Part shown: positions 1,958 to 55,269 of the stretch, one piece after another
Layout of the letters: the number at the start of each line of letters is the position of its first letter
Numbering within the stretch: the first letter of the stretch is position 1
From: [Pseudopropionibacterium] massiliense
Lineage (GTDB): Bacteria > Actinomycetota > Actinomycetes > Propionibacteriales > Propionibacteriaceae
Reading direction: 5' to 3'
Length of the DNA: 64,000 nt
NCBI RefSeq assembly: GCF_900607225.1
Contig: NZ_LR027842.1
Location: 708,088 to 772,087, forward strand
The notes under the pieces: model-generated
The model's input: only the letters and a program-made list of their open reading frames with translations
Databases searched by the model: none
Told to the model about the DNA's origin: nothing
Translations under genes and position numbers: made by a program

Positions 1958-3625
<1,668 letters not shown>

Positions 3626-3634
3626 CATGAATCC

Positions 3635-4936
3635 GTGCGGGACTGGTTCGTCTTCTGGGGGCGTCTGCTGGCCGACACCGGCCGGGTGCTGCGCGACCAC
3701 TGGCCGCAGCTCGTCGGACTGTGCCTGATCGGGATCATCGGGCGCATGGGGTTCCTGTGGCTCGCCCTGTGGGGATCGAAGTTCCACGGGGCGGTCGGGA
3801 TGTTGATTCTGCCGTTGGCGCCGTTGAGCACCCTGATCAGTCTGATGCTGATGCTGCGGGTCACATCGGAGACGCTGTCGGCCTTCCGAGGAACCTACCG
3901 GGGATCCACGTTTCTGGAGCGGTGGTACTACCACTTCATGATCACGGCCCGGGTGCTGGTTCCCTTCATAGCCGCGTACGCCGCTCAGGGCATGTTGGCG
4001 GAAGACAGCCGCTACTACATCCAGGACATCTACTACGACGACAACACCAACTCCGTGGTTGCCGATTCAGCGGCACGGCTCGACTACGCGGAGGGGTGGT
4101 ACCTGCTGCTGTTGGTGGGCGTGACGCTGGTCCTTCGCAAGACCATCTCCATAACCGACATCTTCCGCCGGTCCACGGTCGCGGCGCTGGGGGCCATGTA
4201 TCTGGAGTCGCTGTGGGTCGTCACTCTCGCCAAAGCGTTTTTGTCGAAGCTCAAGGAGATCCTCCAGTGGATTCGGGAAAGAGCCGTCGTTGACAACCTC
4301 GCAAAGGCGTGGGAAGCGTTCTCCGCATGGCTGGGCCCGGTGGGGGATGCGCTTCGGGCCGCCGTCGAATGGGCAGCGGGTCTCGGCGGTGGATTCAGCA
4401 CGCTGGTCGTGATCCCCCTGGCGTGGCTCGCCATCGGAGCCGCGAATTACCAGGCCGACCTGGCGAGCAGCGAAATGCCCACTCCCAAGGGCGTGGCCAT
4501 GCGTCTGGGAAAGCTCTCGGAGCGTTCACGGCGGGTGCTCGCCGAGCTCGTCGAACCGGTCATCACCCCGCTGCACAATTTCTGGGGTGCGTTGTCACGG
4601 ATCACCGTCGCCGGACCTGCGCCCATCGTGATCTTCTGCCTGTCATTCGTCGTGGTGAACCAGTCACGGGTCGGGGTCGCGTGGTTGCTGCACGAAGCGA
4701 TCGGACCTCGCTCACCCACGCGCCACCTGGTGCTGATTCCCTACCTCGACGCGGCGTCGCAGCTCGTCGGTTCCGTGCTGGGAATGGCCCTTCTGGCGGC
4801 TGCCGTGAATCTCGTGGTCGGCGGGAGGCGGCTCGCCGATGCGTCGCGCGGCGGGCCGGGAGGTGCCGCCGCCGTCCCGAAGCGTGCCCTACAAGGGGAT
4901 GTACAGGTACACCGGGTGATGCCACCACAGCCGTAG
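3635..4936 (+). CDS. Multi-pass membrane protein of unknown function
   Basis: 433 residues from the GTG at 3635, just after the nucleotidase stop. Several hydrophobic segments are clear: LVGLCLIGIIGRMGFLWLAL near residue 30, a segment near 50-75, one near 150-165 (LLLLVGVTLVL), one near 250 and two at the C-terminal end. I recognise no catalytic motif or family. It resembles large actinobacterial integral membrane proteins annotated only as hypothetical. Its last 48 bases overlap the convergent gene that ends at 4889, so the two transcripts meet tail to tail. Confidence 0.7.
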   Translation: MRDWFVFWGRLLADTGRVLRDHWPQLVGLCLIGIIGRMGFLWLALWGSKFHGAVGMLILPLAPLSTLISLMLMLRVTSETLSAFRGTYRGSTFLERWYYHFMITARVLVPFIAAYAAQGMLAEDSRYYIQDIYYDDNTNSVVADSAARLDYAEGWYLLLLVGVTLVLRKTISITDIFRRSTVAALGAMYLESLWVVTLAKAFLSKLKEILQWIRERAVVDNLAKAWEAFSAWLGPVGDALRAAVEWAAGLGGGFSTLVVIPLAWLAIGAANYQADLASSEMPTPKGVAMRLGKLSERSRRVLAELVEPVITPLHNFWGALSRITVAGPAPIVIFCLSFVVVNQSRVGVAWLLHEAIGPRSPTRHLVLIPYLDAASQLVGSVLGMALLAAAVNLVVGGRRLADASRGGPGGAAAVPKRALQGDVQVHRVMPPQP

Positions 4937-5515
4937 CGCCTGCGGGACGACGTCCGTGGGCAGGGCGAAGGTGAGGCTCCTGGACCACGTTCTCGGACGA
5001 GGCGGTGTGGTCTCGGTGACCTCCGAGGTGAGGAGATTGAACGACGGCCCGGGAGTTTCCTCGGGTACGCAGGAGAGCGGAGCTATGCCGGCGTACGGGG
5101 AGCTGTGGACCTTGGCCTCCATGAAGCCGTACCGTACCCCGTCGGCCTCCAGCTGGACGCTGCAGTACGTCAGGATCTGATCCGGCTCCGCGGTGAACTC
5201 AAGGTCCACCTGCCACAGCTGCGCTCCCTCCTCCGCCGTGATCTTGCCGTTCTCGTTCTCGACCACCTGGACATCCGTCACCTGCACCGCGACCGTGATC
5301 TCGGCAGTGGCGCTCGTCTTGTTCACGGTGTCGGTCACGACGAACTCCTGGTGCAGTTCCCCCCTCCTGTCCTGTCCGCTGATGCGGTGGCCGTTATCAT
5401 CCCAGGGCAGGTAGAGGTTCACGAGGCGCTGGGAGCAGGCCAGCAGGGCACACACCAAAAGGGGCAGCAGGGCAATCACCCACCCGAGGTTGCGGGCCCA
5501 CCATGGGGATCTCAC
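4889..5515 (-). CDS. Membrane-anchored protein of unknown function, third gene of a three-gene set
   Basis: 208 residues. A signal-anchor (WVIALLPLLVCALLACSQRL, residues about 12-31) is followed by an extracytoplasmic domain of about 175 residues. The Cys at LLAC is not followed by a typical lipoprotein context, so an uncleaved anchor seems more likely. The start overlaps the stop of the upstream gene by 4 bases (ATGA), indicating translational coupling. It shares architecture with the two genes before it: a short cytoplasmic tail, one membrane span and a beta-rich outer domain. Function unknown. Confidence 0.65.
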   Translation of the reverse strand: MRSPWWARNLGWVIALLPLLVCALLACSQRLVNLYLPWDDNGHRISGQDRRGELHQEFVVTDTVNKTSATAEITVAVQVTDVQVVENENGKITAEEGAQLWQVDLEFTAEPDQILTYCSVQLEADGVRYGFMEAKVHSSPYAGIAPLSCVPEETPGPSFNLLTSEVTETTPPRPRTWSRSLTFALPTDVVPQALRLWWHHPVYLYIPL

Positions 5516-6177
5516 GCCTTGCCCTTCACACGCGGGGGGTCAACGGTGATGCGCCCAGTGCCCGCTGCGAGCTGCTCCGCCCGGGATTCGTCAATGCCCA
5601 GATCTATGCTCGCCACGTCAAAAGGGGCGGAGGTGAGGAGGGTCTTCTCCAGGAACAGGAGGAGTACGGCACCCTGCAGGGCGTCCGTCGGTAGTTCGAG
5701 GGCAAAGGTGCAGCCCAGGACCATGCCGGGCTGCCCCGGGCCGCAGGGCGGCACGGTGATGGCCTGGAAGTCACCGAAGTCGCGTCCCTGTGAATCCGAC
5801 AACTGAGGCGTCAGGAGCGAATGAGGTTCGTCCTTCGGCGTGAAGTCCACGTCGACCACCAACCAGATTCCCGAAGTCTTGGCCACATCCGGCCCGGACT
5901 GGACCTCTGTCGCGGAGCGGACCCGGGTCACCTTCACCGATCCCATGCGCAGCTCCACGGATTGGTCCATCATGCCCGCGCGAAAGAACGGTGCATTCCT
6001 GACGGATTCGCTGGTGGGGAGGTGGCTCGCCGCCCATGACCCGAACAGCAGGGCCACGACCAGGGCCGGGACCGTCACCCAGCGTGGCAACCGGCGTCGA
6101 CGGGACGGGGATTCCTGATCCGGGTCCGGATGCATTCTCCGGGGCGGTCCGGGAATTTCTCGGTCGATTGTGGTCAT
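5512..6177 (-). CDS. Membrane-anchored protein of unknown function, second gene of a three-gene set
   Basis: 221 residues. An Arg-rich cytoplasmic N-terminus of about 30 residues is followed by a single span (WVTVPALVVALLFGSWAA) and an outer domain with alternating beta-type hydrophobicity (GIWLVVDVDFTPKD). The pattern recalls DUF4352-like extracellular domains, but I cannot confirm that. It overlaps both neighbours by 4 bases, so the three genes form one coupled operon. Confidence 0.65.
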   Translation of the reverse strand: MTTIDREIPGPPRRMHPDPDQESPSRRRRLPRWVTVPALVVALLFGSWAASHLPTSESVRNAPFFRAGMMDQSVELRMGSVKVTRVRSATEVQSGPDVAKTSGIWLVVDVDFTPKDEPHSLLTPQLSDSQGRDFGDFQAITVPPCGPGQPGMVLGCTFALELPTDALQGAVLLLFLEKTLLTSAPFDVASIDLGIDESRAEQLAAGTGRITVDPPRVKGKA

Positions 6178-6845
6178 CTCTTCTTCAGCTCCTCCACGGG
6201 AAGGGTGACAGAGATTTTCGCCTCCCGTCCGGACCAGGATTTATCGCTGCCCAGGAAGGACTCACGATAGGTGTATCCGGACAGGGTCACCGTGACCTCC
6301 GTCGGCAGGGGTTCCGCCTCGTTCTGCCACCAGACGGCGAGGAGACGTTGGGGAAGGCCGGGTTGGAAACTCCCCTGCTTCTGGGTGTCCTGGAAGCGGT
6401 AGAGCTCTGCCAGATCGGCCGGGCCGTCAGGTTCGTCGTTCATCGTGACCAGGGGGACATCCGGATCCAGCGCGCGGGTGAGCAGTGCCGAGCTCACCTT
6501 GGTTTTGCCGGTGTTGACCACATCCAGGGAGATGAGCAGCAGGCGTTTTCCGCTCTTGGGACGGATCACCGGATCCAGATCGGTGGTGTGAAAGGCCTTG
6601 AGGAATGTCACGTCGAAGGGATCCGCGTGCGCCACTTCCCCGGGGGACACGGACGCGAGTGATTCGCCACGTTCGGCCAGGATGACGTCCCAGCCGCCGA
6701 GCAGGCTGATGGCCCCGATGATGATCAGAGCGGTGAGGACTCCCAGGCCTGCACGGGACCGGCGCTTGGTCGTGTGCGCCGTGGGCGTGGGCAGCGGTTC
6801 ATCGCCGGAATCCTGTTCCCGGCCGTGCTGAGGAGCCTGCTGCAT
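6174..6845 (-). CDS. Membrane-anchored protein of unknown function, first gene of a three-gene set
   Basis: 223 residues from the ATG at 6845; the frame could extend to 6899 but no better start is seen. A hydrophilic Lys/Arg-rich tail precedes one membrane span (LGVLTALIIIGAISLLGGW) and an outer domain containing LLLISLDVVNTGKTKVSSAL. Together with the DVDFTPKD-type strand in the next gene this suggests related, possibly paralogous, immunoglobulin-like or DUF4352-like folds. The role is unknown; a cell-surface or sensory function is only a guess from topology. Confidence 0.62.
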   Translation of the reverse strand: MQQAPQHGREQDSGDEPLPTPTAHTTKRRSRAGLGVLTALIIIGAISLLGGWDVILAERGESLASVSPGEVAHADPFDVTFLKAFHTTDLDPVIRPKSGKRLLLISLDVVNTGKTKVSSALLTRALDPDVPLVTMNDEPDGPADLAELYRFQDTQKQGSFQPGLPQRLLAVWWQNEAEPLPTEVTVTLSGYTYRESFLGSDKSWSGREAKISVTLPVEELKKR

Positions 6846-7427: not shown

Positions 7428-7987
7428 GGGAGATGATGATGGTGCGGGGATGCCCGGTGCAGTCGGCGAGCAGGATGTCGTAGAACAGGGTGCGGGCCGT
7501 GGCGTCCATGCCGAGGTAGGGTTCGTCGAAGATCGTGATGGGGGCGCGGGAGGCCGTTGCGATCAGGATGGCGGGCGGAGAGCTGGCCGCGCGACAGTTA
7601 GTTTCTTGAGCGTCCGTTTGCGGGGGATGCCGAACTCCCCGGCGATCCGATGTGCCAGGCCGATGTCCCAGGTCTCGTAGAGTGCGGAGCCGAGCTGCAG
7701 GATGTGTTCCAGCCGGTACTCGTCGGGGTAACGCTGGGTGTCGCGGATGAAACAGGTGCGGGCCAGGACGGGGCGTTCTCGCGCGGATTGCGCCCGAGCA
7801 CCCGGATGGTTCCGGACGTGGGGCGTTCCTGCGCCGTGACCAGCGACATGGTCACGGTCTTCCCGGCGCCTTTGCGTCCGAGCAGACCGGTGACGACGTC
7901 CTGGCGGAACTCCAGGTTCAGGTCGTCGACGGCGGTGACGGTGCCGAAGCGTTTAGTCACGCCGTCGAGGGTGATGGCGGCGGTCAT
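7428..7987 (-). pseudogene. ABC transporter ATP-binding protein, frameshifted
   Basis: The start MTAAITLDGVTKRFGTVTAV is an ordinary ABC ATPase N-terminus, beginning at the ATG at 7987, which overlaps the stop of the GntR gene by 4 bases. The Walker A reads GRKGAGKT. After VLGRNPRENA the frame is lost; the continuation VLARTCFIRDTQRYPDEYR is in another frame. A further shift precedes the signature-like SRGQLSA, and Walker B (ITIFDEPYLGMDA) is back in the frame that runs into the permease fragment. At least two frameshifts plus the downstream deletion make this a decayed gene unless the assembly is wrong here. Confidence 0.75.
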
Positions 7988-8398: not shown

Positions 8399-9085
8399 TC
8401 AAGAAACCGGCGGCCGGGGCCGCCCGCGCCTCCGCGCCGCGAGCACGATTCCGATGCCGGCGCCCGCCAGCGCGATCGCCCCGAGGGTGAGCCACAGCCA
8501 GTTCAGGTCCGGGTCGGCGGATGCGGTGGCCCGTAGACCCTCCCTGAGGTACATGTCCTTCGGGTCGGACCACGTGACGGTGTTGCCCTCGATCCTGCCG
8601 CTGCCGCTGGCTGTCAGCACGCGACCCGGAAAGGTCACGCGAACCTCGAAGTCGGTGAACATGCTCGCCGACTCCGTGGAGGCGCCACCGGATCCGCTGG
8701 AATACCTGAAGGTCCATTCCCTTCTGGTCTCGTCGTAGGTGATGATCTGGGCCTGGTCAGGAGCCGGACCAATCAGTCTCTTGTGGTTGATGGGCAGCTC
8801 GCCCGTGAACCGGCAGGCGTGGAACAGGTCGTCCTCGTACGGGGCCTGCGCGAGCTCCTCCGGGGTTTGCGCGTGTTCCACGACCGCTTGGCAGATGTTC
8901 TCCACCGTGATTTCTCCGGGAGCGTGTACACCGTTCTCCGGTTTCCGGACCCCGATGTTCCAGTTCAACCTGACATGCTCCTTGTCGACCATGTCGTACT
9001 CCACCCGATACCTGACGCAGGAGGTGAGTCCCAGCAGGAGGGGAAGGAGCAGGAACAGGATGCCGAATCGTCGTTGTTTCGTCAT
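8399..9085 (-). CDS. LppM-like lipoprotein with C-terminal membrane anchor
   Basis: 228 residues. The N-terminal signal peptide ends in a lipobox (LLGLTSC, Cys near 22). The body is a beta-rich domain starting RYRVEYDMVDKEHVRLNW, and the C-terminus has a hydrophobic span (WLWLTLGAIALAGAGIGIVL) followed by a basic tail. This layout matches the LppM/DUF3153 family of actinobacterial envelope proteins, whose biochemical role is not settled. It is separated from the GntR promoter by 55 bases and transcribed in the same direction. Confidence 0.72.
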   Translation of the reverse strand: MTKQRRFGILFLLLPLLLGLTSCVRYRVEYDMVDKEHVRLNWNIGVRKPENGVHAPGEITVENICQAVVEHAQTPEELAQAPYEDDLFHACRFTGELPINHKRLIGPAPDQAQIITYDETRREWTFRYSSGSGGASTESASMFTDFEVRVTFPGRVLTASGSGRIEGNTVTWSDPKDMYLREGLRATASADPDLNWLWLTLGAIALAGAGIGIVLAARRRGRPRPPVS

Positions 9086-42432: not shown

Positions 42433-46383
<3,951 letters not shown>

Positions 46384-46536: not shown

Positions 46537-46992
46537 TCACACGGATGAGAGTGAGGTTCTGCTCTCGGGCCGTAGCGGCAAGCCTCCGGGGCGGATCAGC
46601 GACTCGCTCGTCTCTTCCGCGGTGGCGGGATACGGAACCCGGGAAGCTTTCGCGCTCCGGGTCCCACTGAGACCGAGTTTTCGCATGGCTCGGTCCACCG
46701 CTCCCGGAGTTGCATCCACCCCTGTCCGTCGCAGCGCTTCCAGCATGCGTCGGCGCCCGTAGAAACCTTCGGGCGTCAGGCGCGCGTGCCCATGGGCATC
46801 GGTCGTCCAGACCAGGTTCCGGATGGCCTCCAGCACTTTTTGGTCGCTGATCGCCCGGGCCGATGGCTTACGGGTTTTCCATGCCCGGTAGGTTCTTGCG
46901 GCGATCCCGTATCCCTGCTCCCGCAGGACCCGACAGATCGACTCGACCGCGATCCCCTCGCGTCGCATGTCATCGATGAAGGCGATGATCAA
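46537..46992 (-). pseudogene. IS3-family transposase OrfB, N-terminal fragment
   Basis: The start MIIAFIDDMRREGIAVESIC and LREQGYGIAARTYRAWKTRK, followed by LTPEGFYGRRRMLEALRR, is the HTH region typical of IS3 OrfB. Identity is lost after AMRKLGLSGTRSAKASR. The remaining 30 or so residues are not transposase, and the D-D-E catalytic core is absent. It overlaps orfA by 4 bases, the arrangement used for programmed frameshifting. Confidence 0.8.
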
Positions 46993-47300
46993 GGATTGTG
47001 GGGGTCGAGTTCCCCCGCGAAAAAAGTTGTTGCTGCTTGCAGGATCGCAACGTCCTCCCGCAGGCGGGAGTTCTCCAGCCGCAAGCGACGGATCTCCTCG
47101 CGTGCCTGAGTGGTCATTCCCTCTCGGACACCCGTATCAATCTCGGCCTGAATAGCCCAGCGGCGCAGGGTTTCGGCCCCGATTCCTTCCTCACGGGCCA
47201 CGGCGGCGCATGCAGCGGTCAGCGACGGGTACTGCTCACGGTACCCGCGTAGTAGTCGTAACGCCCGCTTCTTCACAGCGGGATCGAGTCGTTTCGGCAT
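46989..47300 (-). CDS. IS3-family transposase OrfA
   Basis: 103 residues from the ATG at 47300 (MPKRLDPAVKKRALRLLRGY). The HTH EEGIGAETLRRWAIQAEID is followed by a leucine-zipper-like helix, EEIRRLRLENSRLREDVAIL, and FFAGELDPHNP. This frame is intact, but without a complete OrfB it cannot transpose the element. Confidence 0.82.
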   Translation of the reverse strand: MPKRLDPAVKKRALRLLRGYREQYPSLTAACAAVAREEGIGAETLRRWAIQAEIDTGVREGMTTQAREEIRRLRLENSRLREDVAILQAATTFFAGELDPHNP

Positions 47301-47329
47301 GACGCCATCCTTCCTCGCTCGAAAGGAAC

Positions 47330-47519
47330 CGGCACAAAACTTGATGCGGTTCACACCATGAGGCTTGTTCACTGATCATGACCACCCGGTAGAGCTCTCC
47401 CGGCCGGGGTGAGAGCGGGGTTGGTTGCGGAGCAGGCCTCCATGTACTCACGTTACTCCAGAATCCTCCTCAGGAATCGCAACCCAAATAAATACGGCAC
47501 AAAACCTTGGGCGGTTTAC
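47330..47519. repeat. Pair of IS-end-like sequences in the same orientation
   Basis: CGGCACAAAACTTGATGCGG at 47330 (the IS3 remnant end) is matched by CGGCACAAAACCTTGGGCGG at 47495, each continuing into a TTCAC/TTTAC stretch. The second has no transposase next to it and is probably the solitary end of another, deleted copy. Confidence 0.55.
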
Positions 47520-48513: not shown

Positions 48514-51153
48514 GTGCCGAAGCGTATCGAGTATTTTCAGGGGTTGAGGAAGGGTTCGCCTTTTTATGGTCGGCCGCGGCCGTTTGTCGAGTTGCAGGCT
48601 GGTGGTTTGGTGGATCGGCGGTTGCAGTCGGTGGGGTTGCCGGCTGGGTGGTTGGTGCAGTCCTGGAAGGGCTGGGAAGGCTGGACGCCCCGGGACTGGC
48701 AGCCGCGCATGCAGGGGTGGAAGGTTCATGTGTCGGCGACGCCTGGGTGTGCTGTGGAGACTTTGGCTCGGACCACGAGGGTGTGTGTGGATTTTGGGGT
48801 GTCGTTTAAGTTCCTGCCGACGTTGGCGGAGTTGACGGAATCATCGTCGAAGAATCAGGCTCGTGGCGCGGCGGGTAAGTTCATCACGATCTATCCGGAT
48901 GATGATGACCAGTTGGGGGAGTTGCTGGGTGTGTTGGCTGGTGTGTTGAGGGGGCAGGAGGGGCCGTATATTCTGTCTGATCTCAGGTATGTCCCGGATG
49001 CTCCTGTGTTCGTTCGGTATGGAGCGATTATGGGTGTGCAGATGCCTGATGTGGATGATGAACTGGTTGAGTCGATTGTTGATCCCCGTTCCATGCGGTT
49101 GATACCTGATCATCGTGACCCGCGTGTTGTGATTCCTGATGGGGTGGATGTTCCGGAGTTTCTTCGGTCGGCGTATGAGGCGTCGCAGCAGTCGTGTGTG
49201 TCCCGGTTGGATGATTTCGTGAGTATCAAACCGTTGAGTTTCAGTAATGCGGGTGGGGTGTATCGTGCGGAGTTGCCTGGCGGTGAGTTCAGGATTCTGC
49301 GGGAGGCCAGGCCGCATGCCGGGTTGGACGGTAGGAACCGGTGCGCGTTGCAGCGTCAGTTGGTTGAGGAGGAGGTGCTGCGGGATCTTGTCGGGGTGAA
49401 GGGTGTGCAGCAGCTTCGGGGGGTGTTCACCGCGTGGGAGCACCGCTACCTGGAGGTGGATTACATTCCCGGTGTGACGTTGTCATCGTGGATGGTGCAG
49501 AACACTCATTTGCAGGAGAATGATCCCGTGGGGTATGCCCGTCAGGCAGTGGCTGTTGTGGATCAACTCATCGCGATTGTTGAGGCGATTCATCGGCGTG
49601 GTTGGGTGTTTGGTGATCTTCATCCGGGGAATGTGTTGGTCTCCGATGACGGGACGGTGACGATGCTCGATCTGGAGGATGCCAGCAGGGTGGACTCCGA
49701 ACGTGAAATTGGTGTCAGGGTGTTTGAGTATTGTGCTGACGAGTCGGCGGATGCTGTGCAGGCCGACTGGTTCGCGGTGGCGCGTTGCATCATGATGTTG
49801 TATCACGCTGATTTTGAGATTGAGGCGGTGTCGCCGGCGTTTTGGGATCGGTGTCGCCGGAGGGTTCGTGAGGTGTACGGCGAACGGGCGGCTGAGCAGC
49901 TGGTGTTGGTGGAGGGCCGCTATGCGGCTGGTATTCGTCCGGTGACGGCCTGTGATGTCACTGTTGATGTGCCGTCACGGCGGTTGGGTGTGGATTCCGG
50001 GATTTCGGGGTTGTTGAGTGGGATTGAGTGGTCACGACAGTTCGGTCCGGATGGGGCGTTTCCCGGTGATATCGGCCAGCTCACGGCGTGTAGTCATGAG
50101 GTGATCACGACCGGGCGTGCTGGTGTGGTGTTGGCTCAGCAGCGTGTCGGTGCTCAACCCGCCGACAGTGATGTGGATGCGTTGCGGAAGGCTGCTCGGG
50201 AGTGGCCGGGTCAGGAAGCGCCGGGGTTGTTGGATGGTTTGGCCGGGGTGGCGTTGACGCTCAGCGAGGTGGACGCCCACCAGGATGCCGTGGCCGCTGC
50301 CGGTGAGGCGCTTGAGCGGGCTGTGGGGCGTCGCAGGTTGGATCTGGCTGCGGGGCAGGCGGGAGTGATCCTGGCCGCGTTGGAGGTCGCGAAAACGGTC
50401 GGGGACTCAGAGCTGATGGATCGGGCGGTTGCGGCGTATCGCAGGTTGGATGCCTGCCTCACGCCGGACGGGTCGGCGTGGACTTCGTTGTGTCGTCGGC
50501 GGGGTTTGTTCTGGGGATTGACCGGGGTCGCGTTGACGGACCTGGTTGCTCATGCGGTCACCGGCGCTGAGGAACCTCTTGCCAGGGCAAGGGTCCGGGT
50601 GCGTGCGGATCTGGATGCGTGCGTGACCATGGCTACCGGTGAGGTGATGGTTGATGACCGCGAGAAGAAGCGGGTGCTTCCCTACATCGAGTGGGGATCC
50701 GCGGGTTTGCTGCTGATCGCTTCGGCGCTTGAACGCATCACCGGTGAACCGGTGCTGACCCCACAGGAACGTGACGGGATCATCAAGGCCTGTTCTTCGG
50801 AGTTCTACATCTACCCGGGTTTGGATCACGGTCGTGCCGGCATCCTGGTCACGCTGACAGCCGCCGGAGAACACTATCGGGCAGAGGCCGATCGGCAAGC
50901 GGGTCTGCTGCTCGACAGCCTCCTGACCCACGGCGAAAACGCTTGTGTGATCGGTGACGGGATGATTCGTCTCAGTTCTGATCTGGGTACCGGTGCTGCC
51001 GGGGTCGCGTTGGCCCTGCACGCCTACCGGTCACGGCACCCCTATGTGGGTTTGCCGGTCGGCACCCGCACAGCCGCGCTGCTACACCAGCCGGCGGTTT
51101 CACAGCTTGGCTCGGAGACACGCGACCTCGTCGGGGTCGTACCGAGTCACTAG
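48514..51153 (+). CDS. Class III lanthipeptide synthetase (LanKC)
   Basis: 879 residues from a GTG at 48514 with AGGGAGGAA just before it. The three LanKC domains appear in order. First is a lyase-like N-terminal region (about 1-200). Second is a Ser/Thr-kinase-like domain (about 215-480) with ILREARPHAG at 261-270, the catalytic loop GDLHPGN at 367-373 and the metal-binding DLE at 386-388. Third is a LanC-like cyclase domain (about 500-879; GLLDGLAGVALTLSEVDAHQ, YPGLDHGRAGILVTL). The Cys/His zinc ligands of LanC and of class IV LanL are absent, which points to class III. It should phosphorylate and dehydrate Ser in the precursors encoded just downstream and form lanthionine or labionin. Codons rich in T and G set it apart from the core genes, suggesting acquisition. 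Confidence 0.92.
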   Translation: MPKRIEYFQGLRKGSPFYGRPRPFVELQAGGLVDRRLQSVGLPAGWLVQSWKGWEGWTPRDWQPRMQGWKVHVSATPGCAVETLARTTRVCVDFGVSFKFLPTLAELTESSSKNQARGAAGKFITIYPDDDDQLGELLGVLAGVLRGQEGPYILSDLRYVPDAPVFVRYGAIMGVQMPDVDDELVESIVDPRSMRLIPDHRDPRVVIPDGVDVPEFLRSAYEASQQSCVSRLDDFVSIKPLSFSNAGGVYRAELPGGEFRILREARPHAGLDGRNRCALQRQLVEEEVLRDLVGVKGVQQLRGVFTAWEHRYLEVDYIPGVTLSSWMVQNTHLQENDPVGYARQAVAVVDQLIAIVEAIHRRGWVFGDLHPGNVLVSDDGTVTMLDLEDASRVDSEREIGVRVFEYCADESADAVQADWFAVARCIMMLYHADFEIEAVSPAFWDRCRRRVREVYGERAAEQLVLVEGRYAAGIRPVTACDVTVDVPSRRLGVDSGISGLLSGIEWSRQFGPDGAFPGDIGQLTACSHEVITTGRAGVVLAQQRVGAQPADSDVDALRKAAREWPGQEAPGLLDGLAGVALTLSEVDAHQDAVAAAGEALERAVGRRRLDLAAGQAGVILAALEVAKTVGDSELMDRAVAAYRRLDACLTPDGSAWTSLCRRRGLFWGLTGVALTDLVAHAVTGAEEPLARARVRVRADLDACVTMATGEVMVDDREKKRVLPYIEWGSAGLLLIASALERITGEPVLTPQERDGIIKACSSEFYIYPGLDHGRAGILVTLTAAGEHYRAEADRQAGLLLDSLLTHGENACVIGDGMIRLSSDLGTGAAGVALALHAYRSRHPYVGLPVGTRTAALLHQPAVSQLGSETRDLVGVVPSH

Positions 51154-51235
51154 CTCCCCACCCCCACAACACCAAATGGGGTGCGGTGAGCTGTCCAAAT
51201 CCAACACCGAAAACCTGTGGGAGGAGGTGAAAATC

Positions 51236-51370
51236 ATGGCCAACGTTCTCAACCTTCAGTCTGACGCCGTTGAGGTGACCCAGGAAACCAAGTGGTCCTT
51301 CAGGAGCTGGGGCTGGGCCTGCGGTGGTGGCGGTTCGTACAGGAGCTTCTACTACTGCGAGTGGTGGTGA
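51236..51370 (+). CDS. Class III lanthipeptide precursor, copy 1
   Basis: 44 residues behind GGGAGGAGGTG. The leader MANVLNLQSDAVEVTQETK contains VLNLQ, matching the LxLQ helix that class III synthetases recognise. The core of about 25 residues is aromatic and has two labionin-type motifs: S21-x2-S24-x4-C29 (SFRSWGWAC) and S34-x2-S37-x3-C41 (SYRSFYYC), separated by GGGG and ending EWW. The predicted product has two ring systems like labyrinthopeptins, with five Trp and three Tyr. The cleavage site is uncertain; no protease is encoded nearby. Confidence 0.9.
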   Translation: MANVLNLQSDAVEVTQETKWSFRSWGWACGGGGSYRSFYYCEWW

Positions 51371-51385
51371 GGTGGTTCATCACCT

Positions 51386-51541
51386 GTGGAGTTGAGGGAT
51401 CGGGTTGATGGGGCCGGGTGGTCGTGTCGCTTGGTTCTCTCGGACGGTGGTGTGCTGGAGCTTCGGTTCTGGTGGGCCCCGTATGTGGCGGGTGGTTGGC
51501 GATGGGTGTCGCCGGTCGCCAACCATCCGTCTCTGGTTTGA
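51386..51541 (+). CDS. 51-residue mini-ORF after precursor 1
   Basis: A GTG at 51386, 15 bases after the precursor stop and preceded by GAGGTGG, opens a frame beginning MELRDRVDGAGWSCRLVLSD and continuing GGVLELRFWWAPYVAGGW to a stop at 51541. The alternating hydrophobic pattern looks like a small beta-sheet protein. It is repeated after precursor 2. I recognise no family. It could be an immunity, chaperone or processing factor, or the remnant of a larger gene. Confidence 0.45.
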   Translation: MELRDRVDGAGWSCRLVLSDGGVLELRFWWAPYVAGGWRWVSPVANHPSLV

Positions 51542-51635
51542 TGAGTGCCGCTCGAAATTGATTCTTGAACGAGGCAGCACTGGAGAGCATACCCCATTGT
51601 GTGGTCGTCGATGCATGTGGGAGGAGGGGAAAATC

Positions 51636-51770
51636 ATGGCCAACGTTCTCAACCTTCAGTCTGACGCCGTTGAGGTGACCCAGGAAACCAAGTGGTCCTT
51701 CAGGAGCTGGGGCTGGGCCTGCGGTGGTGGCGGTTCGTACAGGAGCTTCTACTACTGCGAGTGGTGGTGA
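51636..51770 (+). CDS. Class III lanthipeptide precursor, copy 2
   Basis: The 44-residue product is identical to that of copy 1, including the VLNLQ leader motif and both S-x2-S-xn-C motifs. The ribosome binding site differs slightly (GGAGGAGGGG). Identity at DNA level across the gene indicates a recent duplication or gene conversion, which raises precursor dosage rather than diversity. Confidence 0.9.
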   Translation: MANVLNLQSDAVEVTQETKWSFRSWGWACGGGGSYRSFYYCEWW

Positions 51771-51785
51771 GGTGGTTCATCACCT

Positions 51786-51968
51786 GTGGAGTTGAGGGAT
51801 CGGGTTGATGGGGCCGGGTGGTCGTGTCGCTTGGTTCTCTCGGACGGTGGTGTGCTGGAGCTTCGGTTCTGGTGGGCCCCGTATGTGGCGGGGGGTTGGG
51901 GGTGGGGGTTGTCTGTCGCCCACCACCCCGTCTCTGGTTTGATGAGTGCCGCTCGAATTGATTCTTGA
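51786..51968 (+). CDS. 60-residue mini-ORF after precursor 2, frameshifted C-terminus
   Basis: The same first 40 residues as the mini-ORF after precursor 1 (MELRDRVDGAGWSCRLVLSD on). A 1-base insertion in a G-run near 51900 then gives a different tail (GLSVAHHPVSGLMSAARIDS) and a later stop at 51968. Either this copy or the first has lost the original C-terminus, so at most one may be functional. Confidence 0.4.
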   Translation: MELRDRVDGAGWSCRLVLSDGGVLELRFWWAPYVAGGWGWGLSVAHHPVSGLMSAARIDS

Positions 51969-52126
51969 ACGAGACGGTGCTGTGGGGCAAGAGACTGTTT
52001 CTCCCGTGCTGTCGGGATTCGGTTTCTGGCTGAAGAAATTGGGGGAGATGGCTGTACGGCTTTGCGGATATCACTATCGGTGAGTCGTTTGGATGTGGTG
52101 GTTGCCGTGAGGAGGCGGGGGAAGTG

Positions 52127-54097
52127 ATGGTGGCTTCGGGTTTTGCGAGGCGGTCGGATTTGTCTCGTATGGGTCCGTCCGATGGTGGGGCTGTGCCTCG
52201 GCGGGCATTGCCGGAGCCTCGGCGACAGGTTTTGCCTGAGATCGCTCGGGATTTTCCGGATTCTCGGGTCCGGCCGCCCGAGGAGGGGTCGCGTGGTCGC
52301 TCTCGGGGTGGTGGGCCGGTTGCAGCTTTTCTTGCTGATCCGCCGAGGGGTGGTTTTCGTCGTTTGGTGAGGGTTTTGCGGTTGGAGCCGGGGGCGTTGG
52401 TTCTGGTTTTTGTTGGGACGGTGTTGTCGTCTCTTGTGTCGTTGGTTCAGCCTTTGTTGGCGGGGTCGATTGTGGGGGTGTTGCAGGGTGGGGGCTTTTT
52501 GGCTGCGCTTCCGTTTGGGGTGGTTTTGGCTGGGTTGGCTGTTTTCGCTTCCGGGGTCACGGCTGTTGTGAATGTTGTGGGCGCGAAGGCTGGTAATCGT
52601 ACTGTGCGTGCTTTCCGGGATGAGTCTGCTGCGATTGCGTTGCGGGTGCCTGCGGACAAGTTGGTGCAGCATCCGACGGCTGATCTGGTTGCTCGGTGCA
52701 GTATTGATTCGGAGCATTTGAGTAAGGTTTTCAGTCAGGGGCCTGTGCAGGCTTTGGGTGGGGTTGTGATGGTGGTGGGGGCGTTGTTCCAGATGGCTGT
52801 GTTGGATCCGGTGCTCACCATTTCGGCGGTTGGTTTGACGGTCACGTGTTTGGTTTTCATCATTGTGATATCGAACAGGTTGACGTCTTTTTCGTTTCAT
52901 CGGCAGGAGGCTCAGGGGGCGTATGTCGCGGAGGTGACTCGTGCGTTGGATTCGGTGTTGACGTTGCGGGCTTTCGTGGCTGACAAGTTTGCTGTGCGGC
53001 GTTTGGACAAGTCGAGTCAGGAGCTTCTCGAGGCAGCGAATCGGGGAGATCGGGCGCATGCGTTCATGTCTCCGGTGGTGACGATTTGTGTGCAGGCGAC
53101 GTTGTTGGTGATTGTGTGTATCGCGGTGGTGCGGGTGCAGGCGGGGGTTTTGTCTGTTGAGCAGTTGGTGTCGTTTTTCATGTATGTGATGTTGATCATC
53201 ACCCCGATCACCGGGAGTGCGGGAACCGTGATGGATATGGCGGAGTGTTTGGGGGCGTTGCGGCGGATCATTGATTTGCGTGCGGTGACGGACCAACCCG
53301 CATCCCGGATCCAGATCAGGCCTGTTGATGCTCAGGTTGGTGGTGTGCCGTCGGTGGGGTCTGGTTTGGTGGGTGAGGTTGGTTTCCGTGATGTGTCGGT
53401 GCGGTACCCGCAGGCGGGTGGTGGGAATCGTGAGTACGCGTTGTCGGGTGTGTCGTTCAGTGTTCCGGCTGGTTCCTGGGTGGCGATGACCGGTTCGTCG
53501 GGTTCGGGTAAGTCGACGGTGTTGTCGTTGTTGGAGAAGTTCATCGTTCCCACGGAGGGGACGATCGTGGTGGATCGGGTGCCGCTTGGTGAGCACGATG
53601 ATGATGGGTATCGGCGTCAGGTCGGCTACATCGAGCAGGCGTGTCCGTTGTTCAGTGGGACGGTGCGTGACAACCTGCTGTTGGGACGCGACATTGATGA
53701 TGACCGGTGTTGGGAGATCATTCGTCAGGTTGGTTTGGGTGAGACGATCAGTGCCCGTGAGGGTGGGTTGGACACGCCGGTGGGGGAGTCGGCGTATGCG
53801 TTCTCCGGTGGCGAACGCCAGCGGTTGGCGATAGCCAGAACCCTTGTCGGTCAGCCACGCATGTTGTTGTTGGATGAGATCACCTCCGGTCTTGATGTGG
53901 TGAACCGGGAACAGATCATGAACCTCATCCGAACCACGATGGGGGGGATCACCACCTTCGCTGCCGGACACGGCCACTTCGGCATGAACATCGCCGACCT
54001 GGTCCTCGTACTCGACAAGGGCCGGTTGGTCGAGTTCGGACCCCCCGCCGAAGTACACCGACGCTCCGCACTGTTCCGGTCTCTCGTAGCAGCCTGA
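52127..54097 (+). CDS. ABC exporter of the lanthipeptide cluster (LanT, no peptidase domain)
   Basis: 656 residues from the ATG at 52127; a GTG one codon upstream is equally possible. A Pro/Arg-rich tail of about 75 residues precedes a six-span exporter domain (about 85-370) and an ATPase with Walker A MTGSSGSGKSTVLSLL, signature AFSGGERQRLAIARTL and Walker B MLLLDEITSGLD. There is no C39 peptidase domain, as is usual in class III clusters, so the leader must be removed by another enzyme. It shares the T/G-rich codon use of the synthetase gene and lies 360 bases after the second precursor. Confidence 0.9.
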   Translation: MVASGFARRSDLSRMGPSDGGAVPRRALPEPRRQVLPEIARDFPDSRVRPPEEGSRGRSRGGGPVAAFLADPPRGGFRRLVRVLRLEPGALVLVFVGTVLSSLVSLVQPLLAGSIVGVLQGGGFLAALPFGVVLAGLAVFASGVTAVVNVVGAKAGNRTVRAFRDESAAIALRVPADKLVQHPTADLVARCSIDSEHLSKVFSQGPVQALGGVVMVVGALFQMAVLDPVLTISAVGLTVTCLVFIIVISNRLTSFSFHRQEAQGAYVAEVTRALDSVLTLRAFVADKFAVRRLDKSSQELLEAANRGDRAHAFMSPVVTICVQATLLVIVCIAVVRVQAGVLSVEQLVSFFMYVMLIITPITGSAGTVMDMAECLGALRRIIDLRAVTDQPASRIQIRPVDAQVGGVPSVGSGLVGEVGFRDVSVRYPQAGGGNREYALSGVSFSVPAGSWVAMTGSSGSGKSTVLSLLEKFIVPTEGTIVVDRVPLGEHDDDGYRRQVGYIEQACPLFSGTVRDNLLLGRDIDDDRCWEIIRQVGLGETISAREGGLDTPVGESAYAFSGGERQRLAIARTLVGQPRMLLLDEITSGLDVVNREQIMNLIRTTMGGITTFAAGHGHFGMNIADLVLVLDKGRLVEFGPPAEVHRRSALFRSLVAA

Positions 54098-54192: not shown

Positions 54193-54262
54193 AGTGTGAG
54201 ACCTGACTTGGCTCATGTTTGGTGTTTTTGGGGTTGGAGGGGGTGTTGGCTAGGGGTTTTGG

Positions 54263-54676
54263 TTGGTGTGGTGTGCACTAATCGGGGGTGTTCTAGCCTG
54301 TTGGGGTGAGTCCGTATGTGAGGACGGTCTGGAGAAACTCTCCCCCCTACGCAAACTCACCACCACCCCACCACCAACCCTGATAGTCATCTCCGCCAAA
54401 GACGCCCGCGTCAACCCCCGCCAAGGACTCACATGGACACTCCACACCCGAACACTCGGCGCAAACACCACCCTCTGGTACGACCCCAACGGCACCCACG
54501 ACACCAGCACCCCCACCAAAACCAACCCCATCACCACCTGGGTCACCACCACACTCGAACAACAAGAGGAGTTCCCCGCGAAAACCGCAGAACAATCTCG
54601 TCCGAGCGATCTCGCCGGCCGGGTCATGCGGGATGGTACGGGGTCCTCCGAGATCATGTTTGACCCCGACAACTGA
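54263..54676 (+). other. Possible gene fragment downstream of the lanthipeptide cluster
   Basis: An open frame from a TTG at 54263 to 54676. From about 54330 it reads like protein with C/A-ending codons (GLTWTLHTRTLGANTTLWYD), the reverse of the T/G-rich use in the cluster. Its first 25 codons do not look coding and there is no internal start. It is best read as the 3' part of a foreign gene joined here by rearrangement. Its end overlaps the -35 of the str-operon promoter. Unrecognised. Confidence 0.35.
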
Positions 54677-54688
54677 GCGTTGTAGCCT
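54660..54688 (+). promoter_or_regulatory. Promoter of the str operon (rpsL-rpsG-fusA)
   Basis: TTGACC (54660-54665), a 17-base spacer, TAGCCT (54683-54688). It leaves a leader of about 205 bases before rpsL. Confidence 0.6.
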
Positions 54689-54897
54689 TACCGAATGTGT
54701 CCGCCGCGAGCGGGCACCTTGTGCGTGCCCTGGCATGACCCCGAGGATCCTTGAGTTGCGAAGAAGTCCACGGGTCTGTGCGGAGTTCGCACAGCAGCCG
54801 CACCAGTGATGCTCACGGAAACGGTGACCCGGGACGCTCCTTGGGGACGGCTGCGAGCCAGGGATACCCATCCAGACAACGAAAGTGATACCAACAG

Positions 54898-55269
54898 GTG
54901 CCAACAATTCAGCAGCTGGTCCGCAAGGGCCGCACCGACAAGGTCAGCAAGAACAAAACGCCCGCTCTCAAGGGCTCTCCGCAGCGTCGTGGTGTCTGCA
55001 CGCGCGTCTACACCACCACCCCCAAGAAGCCGAACTCCGCCCTGCGCAAGGTTGCGCGTGTCCGTTTGAGTTCCGGCATCGAAGTCACCGCCTACATCCC
55101 GGGCGTCGGCCACAATCTGCAGGAGCACTCGATGGTGCTCGTGCGCGGTGGTCGTGTGAAGGACCTGCCCGGCGTTCGTTACAAAATCATCCGCGGCGCC
55201 CTCGACACCCAGGGTGTCAAGGGCCGCAAGCAGGCCCGAAGCCGTTACGGCGCGAAGAAGGAGAAGTAA
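54898..55269 (+). CDS. rpsL: 30S ribosomal protein S12
   Basis: 123 residues from a GTG at 54898. Family segments are [40 protein letters not shown] and [18 protein letters not shown]. The streptomycin-relevant lysines (in TPKKPNS and RVKDLPG) are the sensitive type. The stop overlaps the rpsG start by 1 base. Confidence 0.96.

Follow-up and report, generated by a model that had tools for sequence, protein, structure and literature searches.

Labyrinthopeptins carry additional cysteines that form a disulfide. Their labionin-type S-x2-S-xn-C pairs and LxLQ-type leader, as given in the available parts of two sources (PMC13380574, PMC5719810), are shared by a cluster in the stretch of [Pseudopropionibacterium] massiliense DNA analysed here (64,000 nucleotides, referred to as the window), whose core differs in having only two cysteines and a GGGG spacer and in being more aromatic. 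An earlier sequence-only reading had called this cluster labyrinthopeptin-like. That description holds only for the ring motif; the closest printed gene order found is that of class III clusters from Brevibacterium (PMC5719810, in the portion available). Like the window, these clusters combine a LanKC synthetase, one or two precursors with twin Ser/Ser(Thr)/Cys motifs, and ABC components; some also include a PF00326 prolyl oligopeptidase, and proline occurs in only one of six of their leaders. The likeness is one of gene order and description, and the window differs in having lost its peptidase. The flavipeptin cluster is likewise a class III system with a cluster S9 peptidase (FlaP), as are the sister loci of the window, but FlaP cuts after Pro(-12), whereas the window has a proline-free leader and only a remnant of the S9 gene (PMC10885120, PMC8960859, both from partial texts). 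Finally, ThurKC from Bacillus thuringiensis resembles the window LanKC in its three-domain fold and its lack of Cys zinc ligands; it differs in carrying Lys257 and Ser726/Phe770/Asp771 where the window enzyme has Arg263 and Glu726/Asp771/His772 (PMC10604976, available text).

Judged by its genes, the cluster very probably makes a secreted, small, Trp-rich peptide locked by rings, a general type already known. The LanKC (lyase-kinase-cyclase) gene occupies positions 48514..51153 on the forward strand and encodes 879 amino acids from a GTG start codon preceded by an RBS-like GGGAGGA. Its assignment to class III, as first proposed, is borne out by a score of 631.8-631.9 bits against the curated NCBIfam model NF038151 (cut-off 575), compared with 297.3 bits for the class IV synthetase model, which is below that model's cut-off of 650. 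The Pfam families RamC_N and Pkinase are matched above cut-off, and LANC_like falls marginally short (23.0, cut-off 23.2). Downstream, an ABC exporter that joins membrane and ATPase domains in a single polypeptide (52124..54097, forward strand; PF00664 and PF00005 above cut-off) has no C39 peptidase domain among its Pfam matches, in agreement with the peptidase-free exporter originally described. This protein is 90% identical to its homologue in locus L037 of genome G026. Values of dN/dS are 0.17-0.22 for the LanKC against three close homologues and 0.13-0.20 for the exporter against three homologues, so that both genes, as judged from these alignments, are under purifying selection. A degraded LanKC or exporter was considered and excluded by the open frames, the retained lyase and kinase residues, and the dN/dS values, the one exception being a clade-wide Arg263.

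Two precursor genes on the forward strand (51236..51370 and 51636..51770) encode the same 44-residue protein, in which the leader MANVLNLQSDAVEVTQETK, carrying VLNLQ, precedes the predicted core WSFRSWGWACGGGGSYRSFYYCEWW; the border between the two is placed by prediction. Each gene lies, together with its ribosome-binding site and downstream DNA, in a unit of a direct repeat (51216..51515 and 51616..51915, forward strand; 300 nt, 97% identity, 400 bp spacing), a tandem duplication that, by its sequence, is recent. The earlier claims of two precursors with an LxLQ-type leader, of two S-x2-S-xn-C motifs, and of five Trp, three Tyr, GGGG, SFRSWGWAC and SYRSFYYC in the core are all accurate. Shuffling the 25-residue core 200,000 times produced a pair of strict S[^C]2S[^C]2-5C motifs in a fraction of only 0.00027, and the pair recurs in 31 of 37 distinct precursors drawn from 12 clusters including the window; together, the shuffles and this recurrence exclude a chance origin. 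The strict pair is missing in the other six, and 34 of 37 have two motifs if Thr is permitted. These precursors were picked by leader pattern, so that an LxLQ-like leader in 37 of 37 holds by construction and others may have been missed; the motif and junction counts are independent of that choice. The set leaves out a truncated L037 copy, a 34-residue frame in L110, short motif-less frames in L111, one member of an L106 gene pair distinguished solely by the start chosen, and the precursors of L086 (G112, at a contig end).

The sequence-only reading had made the occurrence of its precursor in related clusters a test of itself. The leader, the junction, and the twin motif do recur there, with Lys at the leader/core junction in 34 of 37 precursors, but the aromatic GGGG core is absent from all other clusters read. 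A genome-wide search with the precursor covered the window's own genome, and the precursor has no NCBIfam or Pfam match up to an E value of 1. Leaders are almost constant across clusters and cores are highly variable, sharing little but the motif even where the LanKCs of two clusters are 83-87% identical; an alignment by eye sets WSFRSWGWAC-GGGG-SYRSFYYC-EWW, following the junction Lys of the window, against ASNRSWGFC-HN-SYQSYVFC-LVK in L109. The available text of a published survey describes very limited core variation within class III subfamilies (PMC11251773). Clusters hold from one to nine precursor rows, with nine in L106, and identical copies occur in the window, L005, L037, and L038. 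A truncated fifth precursor lies beside the four identical copies in L037 (G026; 8585-8659, reverse strand), as would be expected if precursor copies come and go by recombination. Elsewhere, a LanKC-associated precursor in L041 (5139-5321, G035) has an MSYLLDLQ leader and a run of 18 serines in its core; we know of no class III core like it.

The favored interpretation, which we consider likely, is that of a class III cluster whose LanKC makes two labionins in an exported, leader-cleaved peptide that is probably antibacterial. From the chemistry and the labionin to the cut site, production, mature peptide, and activity, the proposed route is a prediction. The VLNLQ leader would dock on the LanKC, whose kinase domain would phosphorylate Ser21, Ser24, Ser34, and Ser37 of the precursor and whose lyase domain would remove the phosphates to leave four dehydroalanines. 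Within each S-x2-S pair, the cyclase would then couple the second Ser to its Cys (Cys29 or Cys41), and attack by the resulting enolate on the first Ser would give two labionins linked by GGGG. For the predicted 25-residue core, the computed mass is 3083.27 Da, which fourfold dehydration would lower to 3011.23 Da ([M+3H]3+ 1004.75). The same genes might instead form plain lanthionine rings of the SapB type, each linking Cys to the first Ser, an alternative that we regard as unlikely. Motifs of this form can yield either product, and in some class III peptides the ring formed is lanthionine, not labionin (PMC7268733, PMC11251773, as far as these texts are available); a precursor from L106 scores 32.3 bits with the SapB/AmfS model, above its cut-off of 25. 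However, 31 of 37 precursors retain all four serines of the two pairs, more than lanthionine formation alone would require. Under the labionin reading, the modified peptide would be exported by the ABC protein, and its leader would be cut beside the conserved Lys19.

Leader removal is the step at which the window departs from its relatives. The gene order LanKC - precursors - ABC - S9 is found in 10 of 11 sister loci, the last gene encoding a prolyl-oligopeptidase-type protein that probably cuts the leader in those clusters. This S9 gene lies behind the exporter in L005, L037, L038, L017, and L040, and was found by tblastn in L106, L107, L108, L110, and L111; it is near full length in L017, L037, L038, L040, L106, L107, L108, L110, and L111. 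The remaining locus, L109, has neither this exporter nor an S9 gene in the 15 kb fetched, within which there is a 35% match over 175 residues to another ABC protein. In L005, a paralogous cluster in the window's own genome, the C-terminal part of the S9 gene is in another frame, and this break may be real or a sequencing error. The window itself keeps only the last 79 codons of the gene (54329..54565, forward strand), which match residues 577-655 of the intact-length L037 protein at 81% by tblastn and lack the region of the catalytic Ser. It therefore has no intact cluster S9 gene of the FlaP/LanPB type and is not the minimal complete class III system that had been proposed.

Directly upstream, the remnant adjoins a scar formed by the last 129 bp of an insertion sequence present in several copies (54200..54328, forward strand); matches of 127-129 bp at 100% identity occur at seven further positions in the genome. 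In three copies that were read (L126, L127, and L128), this end runs on into a transposase-like frame, which we take to be a transposase. The abutment of the two pieces suggests a deletion mediated by the insertion sequence. On the other side of the cluster, between rpoC and the LanKC gene, orfA/orfB-like frames mark a transposase remnant (46662..47340, reverse strand), presumably of IS3 type, that is 75% identical in DNA to a stretch upstream of a G026 LanKC, with weaker matches in other genomes of the genus. The earlier description of the region had left out both the S9 remnant and the flanking insertion-sequence pieces.

With its cluster S9 gene gone and that of the paralogue frame-broken, maturation may fail in this strain. 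Another S9 peptidase, an M1 peptidase, or the damaged S9 protein of the paralogue would be needed in trans; the genome has ten S9 matches above cut-off besides the remnant, the L005 gene among them, and one M1 peptidase. Proline-directed cutting was rejected as the only rule. Pro at -5 occurs in 24 of 37 precursors and is absent from those of the window and of L037, where the S9 gene is intact in length, and its absence favors a cut at Lys(-1), although this is unproven. The deleted S9 gene, the insertion-sequence pieces on both flanks, and the frame-broken paralogue are also what would be expected if the window copy were a dying cluster that yields no mature product and faces decay. That prospect appears doubtful, since the LanKC, the exporter, and both precursor copies have open frames, the precursor duplication is recent, and dN/dS is 0.13-0.22, though this measure is blind to recent loss. 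Gene content, motif conservation, peptidase loss, and purifying selection can all be read from the DNA, and the cluster is probably a class III lanthipeptide system that still works or did so until recently. One source describes actinobacterial class III clusters as usually protease-free (PMC7268733, in the text available), whereas the branch described here mostly carries a cluster protease.

The product of such a system would probably be a secreted amphipathic peptide that acts on neighboring Gram-positive bacteria. To our knowledge, Propionibacteriaceae form no aerial hyphae, which counts against a role as morphogen. A function like that of a morphogen or biosurfactant, in place of an antibacterial one, is rather improbable even though SapB-type class III peptides act in this manner (PMC13380574, available text), because cores that differ greatly among clusters with near-identical enzymes would better suit competition.

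The placement of the cluster between rpoC and rpsL was correctly recognized from the outset, with rpoC ending at 46383 and rpsL starting at 54898. Both gene ends are on one contig in 34 of 39 genomes of the genus, and the gap between them, measured by hand, is below 450 bp in 14 of these and spans 1.4-14 kb in the other 20, so that the interval is an insertion-prone site in the genus. This cluster occupies it in only two of the 34 (G000, the window's own genome, and G026). Thirteen other rpoC-rpsL stretches (L093-L105) were viewed by eye for their frames, and a clade LanKC is present in none of these 13 genomes. An initial view that the window and L038 lie at different sites was wrong, as both are between rpoC and rpsL, and window positions 54329-54897 match L038 at 86% as far as rpsL. 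The LanKC and ABC genes of the window are nevertheless closer to those of L005 and L037, at other sites, than to those of L038 at the same site (fork support 94/94 for LanKC and 89/94 for ABC, neither starred), a pattern suggestive of exchange between sites. Rfam gave no match at its gathering threshold between 46300 and 55300, and promoter and terminator scans gave no excess over shuffles.

Four LanKC-type genes are present in the window's own genome, three of them above the cut-off of 575. Besides the window gene, these are L005 (C1:3115902; 619.9 bits, 86% identical to the window LanKC) and L014 (C1:3135379; 578.1 bits), which by eye has an adjoining transporter-like frame; the fourth, L015 (C1:2679238), scores 426.3 bits. 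Weak matches to the model occur in 12 of 14 control genomes, and one control has a match above cut-off. Within L015, a small frame (7687-7815, reverse strand) has two S-x2-S-x3-C motifs (SEASVIFC and SHWSWTFC) and no LxLQ leader. A further locus of the genome, L016, is of class II: its LanM gene (3324-6533) scores 633.8 bits against a cut-off of 304, and two different Cys-rich small frames lie upstream of it (2574-2783 and 2812-3042), perhaps a two-peptide lantibiotic. Neither frame exceeds an NCBIfam cut-off; one reaches 16.5 bits with a mersacidin/lichenicidin model (cut-off 23.5).

Beyond the window gene itself, LanKCs 60-87% identical to it are found in four of 39 genus genomes (the G000 paralogue, two in G026, and one each in G035 and G020). 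A scan of contigs, from which own-genome or very near records may have been excluded, gave one locus at 73% (CAMCJC010000021.1, an uncultured Propionibacteriaceae bacterium). Among 198 genomes of the family, 16 match at E <= 1e-30, seven of them, beyond the four of the genus, having LanKCs at 50-53%; in a class-wide sample of 394 genomes, 68 reach E <= 1e-40, with identities of 29-42% outside the window's genome among the matches listed. In a tree of 23 LanKCs, the 12 clade members included (of 13, L086 being left out) form one clade with 100/100 support. As far as these searches extend, the branch is found only in Propionibacteriaceae and is little described. Text searches, a sequence search of papers being impossible, revealed among the matches listed no paper recognized as describing this family.

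The branch differs, on the alignments examined, from other LanKCs at two active sites. ThurKC is the best match of the window enzyme both by sequence and by the fold of its predicted model, and catalytic Asp368, DLE386-388, and the lyase residues Lys70/His72 are retained. The canonical beta-3 Lys of the kinase domain is replaced by Arg263. Arginine at this position is found in 13 of 13 clade members and in one of 42 distinct LanKCs outside the clade, the latter being a nonrandom set of best-scoring loci returned by searches (45 rows minus the repeats L132, L143, and L147) that includes two class IV-like rows (L121 and L122). The one outside case is L123 (G304), and the LanKCs of L086 and L089 have incomplete N termini. 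When Lys257 of ThurKC was replaced by Ala, degraded fragments of the peptide resulted (PMC10604976, available text), and in light of this result and the clade-wide Arg, kinase activity should not be assumed. At the zinc-ligand columns, defined after the same source (NisC C284/C330/H331), the window has Glu726/Asp771/His772. The earlier claim that LanC zinc ligands are lacking is thus right for both cysteines (E726 and D771), but the histidine is retained. The clade mostly has Glu/Asp-Asp-His in place of Cys-Cys-His, with Glu/Asp first in 12 of 13, Asp second in 11 of 13, and His third in 13 of 13; the class IV-like L121 and L122 have Cys at these columns. A bolder proposal, that the branch has reworked both sites into a kinase that uses Arg for the near-universal beta-3 Lys and, in a cyclase type regarded as metal-free in class III, a former zinc site at which Glu/Asp-Asp-His binds metal or forms a catalytic dyad, with fast-diversifying twin-labionin products, seems quite improbable.

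The fold matches of the modeled LanKC include PAK1 K299R entries. The beta-3 Lys is commonly mutated to kill kinases, and PAK1 K299R is used as a dead mutant. A clade-wide change from Lys to Arg in an enzyme under purifying selection thus probes how indispensable this residue is. Zinc-free class III cyclase action and labionin formation have been named as open problems (PMC10604976, in the text available), which the ThurKC mutants settle only partly (PMC10604976). A natural clade with different residues at the same columns and up to nine precursor rows per enzyme offers a ready comparison set for these questions. Furthermore, because related precursors occur with and without a cluster peptidase, leader removal becomes testable in this family.
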